A stretch of 64,000 bases of DNA from Nocardioides solisilvae (GTDB taxonomy: Bacteria; Actinomycetota; Actinomycetes; Propionibacteriales; Nocardioidaceae). This document shows positions 31,501 through 63,515 of this stretch, piece by piece. The stretch is taken from contig NZ_QHKX01000001.1 of NCBI RefSeq assembly GCF_003194625.1, positions 868,001 through 932,000 on the forward strand, written 5' to 3'. A program made the position numbers and the translations under genes. Each line of letters opens with the position of its first letter. The stretch's first letter is position 1. A model generated the notes under the pieces. The model made no database searches and was not told the origin of the DNA. It saw only the letters and a list, made by a program, of their open reading frames with translations.

Positions 31501-32166
31501 TCAGCCCGCGAGCCGGACCTGGACGACCTCGAGCCCGGACTCCTCCGCGGCGAACCAGACCGCTCCCACCTGCGGGCTCACGGGCCTGGTGCCCTCGGGA
31601 CCGACGGTGAGGTAGTGACCGAGGGCGGTCCGCCACAGGTAGCGGCCCGGGCCGACCTGGCGCACCTCGAACCCCGCGTGCGTCTTGGGCCGGTGGTTCC
31701 ACCGGGAGAGCGGCTGGGAGTGGTGGGTCCCCGTCTGCCCCGGCGGCCGGTGCTCCCAGGGGGTCGGGTGGTCGAAGTCGACCCGTCTCGACCGGCCGCA
31801 CGCCCAGGGGAACATGTCCCGCCCACCGGTGAGGAGCCAGACCCGCTCCTTGCCCCTCTCGGCGTGCTCGTAGCCCGTGGCGGCCACCGCCTCGGCCAGG
31901 TCGACGACGGGCTCCACCGCCACCTGGCAGGGGCCCAGCCAGTGGGCGACCTGCGAGGCCAGGACCGGCCCGCACTCCTCCACCCGCCCGACGGCCGACC
32001 GCGGATCGGCCATGCCCGCGACGGTGAGGTGGAGGTGGAGGACGGCCCGCGGGCGCAGCTGGGCCGGCTCGATGCTGCGCAGCGCGTCGAGCAGGAGCTG
32101 CAGCACACTCGAACACCTGCTCGAACAGCAGCCTTTGTCCACAGGGTGTCGCGCACAGGCTGGCAC
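31501..32166 (-). pseudogene. DUF222/13E12-family remnant (N-terminal part lost)
   Basis: The frame encodes the C-terminal half of a DUF222/HNH protein. LLLDALRSIEPAQLRP, VEECGPVLASQVAHWLG, DMFPWACGRSRRVDFDHPTP, PPGQTG, NHRPKTHAGF and GRYLWRTALGHYL align in order with the 13E12 family. The N-terminal DUF222 domain of about 250 residues is absent. The HNH site is degenerate: the usual H-N after QTG is HH, and the F-H-H is W-N-H. At the 5' end a SOS-like box is kept, with a GTG inside it at the position where intact relatives start. That GTG is out of frame with the body, so an internal deletion is likely. The open frame could still be expressed from 32166. Confidence 0.75.
32109..32124 (-). 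promoter_or_regulatory. LexA (SOS) box-like site on the DUF222 remnant
   Basis: TCGAACACCTGCTCGA on the plus strand matches the mycobacterial-type SOS box TCGAAC-N4-GTTCGA at 11 of 12 positions. It is retained at the 5' end of the deleted DUF222 gene. Confidence 0.55.
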
Positions 32167-61993: not shown

Positions 61994-62107
61994 GACCCGC
62001 GGGCGCCCGTTGGCACCGCCCATTCAGGGGAGGGTGTGGAGCGCGAGACTCGGGTGACAGTCGGACGCGTGCTCCTGCGAGACACGAGGACTGTCGGCGG
62101 TGCTGAC

Positions 62108-62128
62108 TATTCTCGAACACATGATCGA
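62108..62128 (+). promoter_or_regulatory. -10 element and LexA (SOS) box over the DUF222 gene start
   Basis: TATTCT (62108-62113, TANNNT) is followed by 7 nt and the ATG at 62121. Overlapping it, TCGAACACATGATCGA (62113-62128) matches TCGAAC-N4-GTTCGA at 11 of 12 positions. Bound LexA would cover the transcription and translation start of a leaderless mRNA. Confidence 0.65.
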
Positions 62129-63515
62129 GACGGGGGAAGCGAGTGGCCCCACGGGGCCCGGGGCGGCGGCCTGGTCGGTCGCCGAGCTGGAGGGGTTGGT
62201 GGCCGAGCTGGCGTCGAACGTGGTGCCGGAGGTGGATCCGCGGGCGTGTCTGGCGCAGGTGGAGGTGCTGGAGGCGATGAAGGCGGCGTTGGCGGCGGCG
62301 CAGGTGCGTGCCACGGCGGCGTACGCCGCCGCGGAGGTGCGGCGGCTGGAGGAGTGTGCCGAGGAGGCTCGCCGGGCTGGTGCGGTGTCTGGGCGTGGCC
62401 CTGCTCCGGTGGCGGTGGTGGCCGCCCAGGTGGGGCTGACCAGGCGGGAGTCGCCGGCGCGTGGCAGGGCGTGGGTGTCGGCTGCGTCGGCGTTGGTGGC
62501 CGACCTGCCGCGGACGTTGGAGGCGCTGGGGCGGGGTGTGCTGACCGAGGAGCGGGCGATGGTGATCGTCCGGGAGACCGCGGACCTGACCGCGGAGGAC
62601 CGGCGGGCGGTGGATGCGGAGCTGACCACGCCGGTGGGGCCGCCCGACGGGATCGACGACCAGGGCAACCCCCGGTGGGACGACCCGACCGGGGAGGGTC
62701 AGGTCGCGGGACTGGGGACGGAGGCGCTGCGCCGGTTGGTGCAGAGACTCGCGCTGCGCCACGACTCGACCGAGGTGGCGCGGCGCCGGGAGCGGGCTCG
62801 GGCGCGGCGTCGGGTGAGCGGCAGGTTGCTGGGTGATGGGACGGGTCGGATCACCGCGGTGGTGAAGGCCGAGCACTATGCCCACGTCATGGCGGCCCTG
62901 GGTGCGGCGGCCGCGACCGCCCGCAACGAAGGCGACGCACGCAGCGGTGACCAGGTGCGGGCCGACACCCTGGTGGCCCGGGTGACGGGGGTCGACCCGA
63001 CGGCACCGGTGCCGGTGGAGCTGCACCTGGTGGTCCCGGCCACGGGCCTGCTCGGTCAGCCGGGTGCACCGGCGGAGCCGGGCTGGATCCTCGGCAGCGC
63101 GGGGGGAGCGGTGGTGCCGGCGGGGATCTGCCGGGACCTGTTCACCCAGGCTGCGGAGGCTGGGGTGGCGGCGGTGCGGCGGGTGTTCGCCGACCGGGTG
63201 GACGGGCGGCTGGTGGCGATGGAGAGCTCGAACCGCACCTTCACCGGGCTGCTGGCGAGGTTGATCAGGATTCGCGACGGCGGCACCTGTCGCACCCCGT
63301 GGTGCGACGCCCCGGCCAAGCACGTCGACCACGTCGATCCCGCCGCCGAGGGTGGCCCGACCAGCGAGGCGAACGGGCAGGGGCTGTGCGAGGCGTGCAA
63401 CCAGGTCAAGGAGGCGCCGGGCTGGTCCCACTGGGTCGGGATCGGGGGCCGGACCCACGTCACCACCCCGACCGGGGCCACCTACACCAGCCGGCACACG
63501 CCGCTGGCCTCCTGA
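62121..63515 (+). CDS. DUF222 / HNH endonuclease (13E12 family)
   Basis: 464 aa from the ATG at 62121; an in-frame GTG at 62100 with GAGGA upstream is an alternative. The N-terminal DUF222 domain (about 20-340) is helical and Ala-rich (VEVLEAMKAALAAAQVRATA). The C-terminal HNH domain has zinc cysteines and catalytic residues: GTCRTPWCDAP, HVDHVDP, and ANGQGLCEACNQVKEAPGW. Mycobacterial relatives (13E12 repeats) are multicopy, and several are induced by DNA damage. A LexA-like box overlaps the start here, consistent with that. Activity and biological role are unknown. Confidence 0.88.
   Translation: MIETGEASGPTGPGAAAWSVAELEGLVAELASNVVPEVDPRACLAQVEVLEAMKAALAAAQVRATAAYAAAEVRRLEECAEEARRAGAVSGRGPAPVAVVAAQVGLTRRESPARGRAWVSAASALVADLPRTLEALGRGVLTEERAMVIVRETADLTAEDRRAVDAELTTPVGPPDGIDDQGNPRWDDPTGEGQVAGLGTEALRRLVQRLALRHDSTEVARRRERARARRRVSGRLLGDGTGRITAVVKAEHYAHVMAALGAAAATARNEGDARSGDQVRADTLVARVTGVDPTAPVPVELHLVVPATGLLGQPGAPAEPGWILGSAGGAVVPAGICRDLFTQAAEAGVAAVRRVFADRVDGRLVAMESSNRTFTGLLARLIRIRDGGTCRTPWCDAPAKHVDHVDPAAEGGPTSEANGQGLCEACNQVKEAPGWSHWVGIGGRTHVTTPTGATYTSRHTPLAS

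Follow-up and report, generated by a model that had tools for sequence, protein, structure and literature searches.

A gene for a DUF222-like HNH nuclease in Nocardioides solisilvae is probably driven by a single fused DNA-damage promoter, at which PafBC and LexA would together form an AND gate. The promoter lies in a 64,000-nucleotide stretch of genomic DNA, the whole of which we refer to as the window, and its architecture (elements, spacing and conservation) is well supported. The AND logic, the binding of LexA, the action of PafBC and the nuclease activity of the product are predicted from sequence.

On the plus strand, the site begins with the RecA-NDp/PafBC element cTGTCGGcg (62,091–62,099), whose TGTC occupies -29 to -26 counted from the ATG, followed by a spacer of 8 nt, the consensus length (62,100–62,107), and the -10 hexamer TATTCT, a TAnnnT (62,108–62,113). 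The final T of the hexamer is also the first base of a LexA box (62,113–62,128) centred between 62,120 and 62,121, and the ATG start codon (62,121–62,123), where transcription presumably starts, takes up box positions 9–11. An earlier note on this DNA had described the box as one base away from TCGAAC-N4-GTTCGA with the ATG inside it, and had placed a TANNNT -10 seven nucleotides upstream; both descriptions are borne out by direct reading of the sequence, with a T to A change in the right half (TCGAACACATGATCGA against TCGAACNNNNGTTCGA) and seven bases between TATTCT and the ATG. The RecA-independent (PafBC) promoter is quoted in PMC5656591 as tTGTCRgtg-8 nt-TAnnnT; the available text of other reports has PafBC acting through this motif (PMC6789036, PMC8223512), places the PafBC element at -26, has single-stranded DNA activating PafBC and also describes SigA adaptation (PMC11804915), and states that both motifs occur at several genes (PMC8223512). 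Here, the TGTCR core is present and cTGTCGGcg ends exactly eight bases before TATTCT (62,091–62,113), while the two differences between the window 9-mer and tTGTCRgtg, both at weaker positions, count against a fused promoter.

A chance origin of the box was rejected: within one mismatch of the LexA palindrome there are two places in the window, where 100 dinucleotide shuffles gave 0.08 on average, and 31 in the genome (four contigs, 3.58 Mb), where the reversed pattern gave 6; in addition, the composite TGTC-N12-TANNNTCGAACNNATG occurs once, exactly, in the window, where 0.01 occurrences are expected. The second place in the window (32,109–32,124) falls at the beginning of an HNH-type relative that is broken. 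The 31 include sites in front of lexA, recA, an AlkB-like 2OG-Fe(II) oxygenase gene and a gene judged uvrA-like by visual inspection of its N-terminus, and since the lexA, recA and uvrA-like boxes carry one mismatch each, the window box, which matches the palindrome of the actinobacterial LexA/SOS box with one mismatch, is of ordinary quality. The box is confirmed as a real element and a putative LexA site. Additionally, the RecA-NDp consensus with at most one mismatch was found at 17 sites of the genome against 1 for the control, a list to which the window site, with its two mismatches, does not belong. A GTG at 62,100 was rejected as an alternative start, since the sequence just 5' of the ATG, the GTG included, is not conserved in relatives. 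From spacing and conservation, we infer a leaderless mRNA with its 5' end at the start codon.

Aligning the window gene with two paralogues from its own genome and with relatives from two other genomes (G028 and G007) left as invariant columns essentially TGTCGG, the -10, CGAAC, CATGA and CGA, with TGTC at the same exact offset in all five and the right-half variant GATCGA retained in relatives at 57–58% protein identity. The PafBC element sits at the exact spacing required and shares the best-conserved part of the site with the -10, the ATG and the left half of the box, so release of LexA alone may be insufficient for induction; likewise, a loss of LexA binding by itself would be compatible with induction by damage, because PafBC could still drive the promoter. 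The previously suggested LexA site over a leaderless start, with induction by DNA damage, appears well supported, both by this conservation and by analogy with the 13E12/HNH precedent in M. tuberculosis, but the suggestion was incomplete in that it overlooked the PafBC element. We compared 32 relatives of the window protein, from its own genome and others: a box with up to two mismatches stands at 20 of them, and seven of the 20 add TGTC at -21 from the box. Of three plasmid regions read, one, from Rhodococcus (L268), carries a one-mismatch box, and TGTC at -21 was seen in none. The only relative found in named genome contigs comes from Nocardioides mangrovicus. Between the window gene and its 87% identical paralogue, whose LexA box has two mismatches, DNA homology extends from 31 nt upstream of the ATG as far as the stop codon with nothing beyond, and the promoter and gene thus behave as a single unit.

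The gene itself (62,121–63,515, plus strand) encodes 464 amino acids, with an HNH domain at residues 396–430 (63,306–63,410, plus strand; PF01844, 29 bits against a cut-off of 21.4). Its initial description as a DUF222-HNH gene held for this domain, but DUF222 (PF02720) scored 17.7 bits, under the gathering score of 24.4, which is why we call the gene DUF222-like. The 87% paralogue reaches 26.7 bits for DUF222, above the cut-off only when neighbouring stretches are added. A second close paralogue in the genome is 57% identical, and ten further DUF222 matches were found there, the eleventh match being the 87% paralogue. For the window protein, PADLOC gave no family, NCBIfam nothing but a sub-threshold IscB match (E 0.17) and the PDB no meaningful solved relative; an AlphaFold model of the protein with one relative (mean pLDDT 40) was not used. 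We rejected the idea that the gene itself came from phage, 5 phage records and likewise 7 plasmid records containing partial matches only.

In two more distant HNH-like genes of the same genome (L012 and L014), a box free of mismatches spans a GTG start; a Pfam search at E 0.1 gave no family for either, and only weak C-terminal similarity (best E about 1e-5 to 1e-6) ties them to DUF222 proteins. A remnant of a gene of this type occupies 31,501–32,124 of the window on the minus strand. There, the box at 32,109–32,124 and its GTG are joined out of frame to the C-terminal third, which points to an internal deletion with frameshift.

Outside this genome, we examined 102 DUF222 genes in a sample of the phylum, defined as matches starting at model position 31 or earlier; later-starting matches and two at contig ends (G074:C200 and G097:C173) were left out. 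Within 350 nt upstream of the domain match, 53 of these genes have a box with at most one mismatch, 31 of the boxes being perfect, compared with averages of 0.08 (at most one mismatch) and 0 (perfect) and maxima of 2 and 0 for 179 permuted palindromes. One genome, G073, supplies 20 of the 102 genes; without it, 33 of 82 have such a box, 11 of them perfect. An in-frame ATG or GTG falls on box position 9 in 33/53 cases and on position 7 in 3/53. TGTC stands at -21 from 26 of the 53 boxes, and without G073 at -21 in 6/33 and at -23 in five, every other offset being seen at most once. When boxes with up to two mismatches are considered, 26 of 34 position-9 genes have TGTC 29 nt from the start, and four of six position-7 genes have it at 28–29 nt. 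Such constancy, despite a 2-nt shift of the box relative to the ATG, is as expected of a leaderless start fixed by the promoter, and the start codon therefore appears to be set by the promoter, with the LexA box in either of two registers. Counted against our proposal, 49 of the 102 genes have no box with at most one mismatch, including all nine examined in G065 and all nine examined in G088.

The 2.5 Mb Actinomycetota genome G073 contains 30 composite promoter sites, and all 20 of its DUF222 genes examined have a perfect box over the ATG together with TGTC at -21. A second layout is common to six DUF222 genes of the Nocardioides genome (L001, L003, L004, L006, L009 and L010): a degenerate box, TCGAACNNNTGTCCAN, is followed 48–49 nt to its 3' side by a TTGTCGGTGG-like element, and TTGAGT replaces the -10.

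We also searched Actinomycetota genomes at the DNA level only, with the query TGTC-N12-TANNNTCGAACNNRTG, of which the right half of the LexA box is not part. Matches were found at 78 sites in 31 of 396 genomes, against 2 for the reversed control. At 30 loci examined, the right half is present with at most two mismatches in 24 and with at most one in 19; five of its six bases are free, the G being forced by the start codon, and chance would account for about 0.10 per locus, or about three of 30. Twenty loci encode DUF222/HNH-type proteins on the same strand, 16 of them by Pfam scores over the cut-off, one (L253) by a sub-threshold HNH match and three (L251, L254 and L255) by similarity only, the frames of L251 and L254 being broken or displaced. 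The others comprise L258, with a DUF222/HNH-type gene on the other side of a shared palindrome; L250, which ends near a contig edge; L256 and L257, of unknown family; L229, a PD-(D/E)XK nuclease; L234, with no clear gene; and four similar genes that look Streptomyces-like by eye (L244–L247, from G080, G185, G250 and G426), the one scanned being an MFS transporter. These four combine a PafBC-like layout with a left half-box over the ATG and lack the LexA right half. Absence of the right half, in 6/30 loci including the four Streptomyces-like ones, counts against a fused promoter and means that the left half can occur without the LexA palindrome.

In viral contigs, the full composite was found in eight stretches, compared with none for a spacer one base shorter and none for a permuted CTGT. 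Six of the eight precede Peptidase_M78 (IrrE-type) genes that start at the box ATG, namely the IrrE/ImmA-type metallopeptidase loci L259, L260, L261, L263, L264 and L266, and a DUF222 match was found in none of the eight. Because most of the viral composites precede IrrE-type genes, the composite is a promoter type and not a property of DUF222 as such, and its position there could make prophage induction answer to both damage sensors. At 101 viral-contig sites having a -10, a box and an ATG, TGTC stands at -21 in eight, at -22 in two and at -29 in one. A recurrent 81-aa protein (L272, L274, L275 and others) also starts at the ATG of a LexA box, with the -10 present and TGTC absent at -21.

The genome encodes lexA (241 bits, cut-off 111) as well as recA. 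Candidates for PafB and PafC are two tandem WYL genes (C4:277270 and C4:278280) downstream of pafA, with a frame that by eye resembles a peptidyl-prolyl isomerase between the pafA fragment and the pair; the two WYL genes were assigned by WYL domain and position, NCBIfam having matched no pafB or pafC model. In an undamaged cell, LexA would occupy positions -8 to +8, with the start in the middle, and obstruct RNA polymerase, and PafBC, without its single-stranded DNA ligand, would give the polymerase no help. Damage would produce single-stranded DNA and RecA filaments, leading to LexA self-cleavage, and PafBC would be activated too; only after both steps would RNA polymerase start at the ATG and make a leaderless mRNA. 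Two sensors reading one signal at one promoter would form an AND gate that keeps a potentially harmful nuclease tightly off. We predict this logic because LexA on this box would stop RNA polymerase at precisely the promoter that PafBC would activate.

One rival is an SOS promoter under LexA alone, as in the earlier note; sigma-A would read the -10, LexA would sit on the start, and the TGTC would be there by coincidence. Boxes over the start without TGTC at -21 do exist, at 27 of the 53 DUF222 boxes and 93 of the 101 viral-contig sites, and the perfect boxes of L012 and L014 have no RecA-NDp match; however, the exact, invariant TGTC offset in the window gene and its four aligned relatives, set beside the 0.01 composites expected, counts against this rival, and we consider control by LexA alone improbable. 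Control by PafBC alone, with the palindrome a decaying remnant that does not bind LexA and GATCGA as its altered right half, would fit the one mismatch in the window box and the two in the 87% paralogue, and also the Streptomyces-like genes, in which the PafBC layout and left half are combined and the right half is absent. Yet the same GATCGA is kept at 57–58% protein identity, the lexA and recA boxes of this genome are likewise one base off, and the right half persists at 24 of the 30 composite loci, so we consider a mere remnant improbable.

Both proteins might also bind under a different logic, with LexA merely damping a PafBC-driven promoter, or with basal sigma-A sufficing after LexA leaves. 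Published recA, at which either route can act according to the available text of PMC11804915, is in keeping with this, but the window LexA box overlaps the -10 and start of one promoter, whereas the LexA box and RecA-NDp motif in the recA region of the same genome lie 67 nt apart, and we regard a logic other than AND as unlikely. A fused promoter requiring both PafBC activation and LexA release remains our probable reading.

A broader version is more tentative. A compact AND gate of the form TGTC-N12-TANNNTCGAAC-NN-ATG-TTCGA, with the LexA operator centred on a leaderless start and PafBC required, could exist across the Actinobacteria and be kept mainly for genes that are harmful if leaked, such as chromosomal DUF222-HNH nucleases and viral-contig IrrE/ImmA-type proteases; we see this as possible, with doubt slightly prevailing. 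If true, prophage switching would be tied to the same two sensors. The window promoter would join two mycobacterial-type damage pathways that are mostly described side by side, and the composite suggests that DUF222/13E12-like products stay silent until damage is certain. As a DNA signature, it picks out HNH genes of the DUF222/13E12-like kind, a large family whose function is unknown, with no need of protein sequence.

LexA regulation of M. tuberculosis 13E12 genes is known (Davis 2002 and Smollett 2012, via PMC5005354 and PMC4181829), and five putative HNH endonucleases of this species are described, in the accessible part of PMC8151990, as induced by mitomycin C in a RecA-dependent manner. 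The portions of the literature searched contained no description of a PafBC element and a LexA box merged over a start codon and no link between PafBC and 13E12/DUF222, which does not prove absence from print. LexA control of 13E12 genes and dual PafBC/LexA control of some genes are known, and the fused single promoter appears to be new. The M. tuberculosis LexA regulon, as far as the available accounts describe it, shares the TCGAAC(N4)GTTCGA box at DUF222/HNH-type (13E12) genes but is described by the LexA box alone, whereas the window promoter adds a fused PafBC element and an ATG inside the operator. RecA-NDp/PafBC promoters, as outlined in the available text on them, have the TGTCR core, 8-nt spacer, TAnnnT -10 and an element at about -26, and the window promoter differs from them in having a LexA operator that overlaps the -10 and the start. 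Dual control of recA is alike in placing one gene under both damage pathways; it relies, in the text seen of PMC11804915, on two separate promoters (P1 for PafBC, P2 for LexA), a difference that counts against a fused reading, whereas in the window both elements meet at one promoter over a single start codon.
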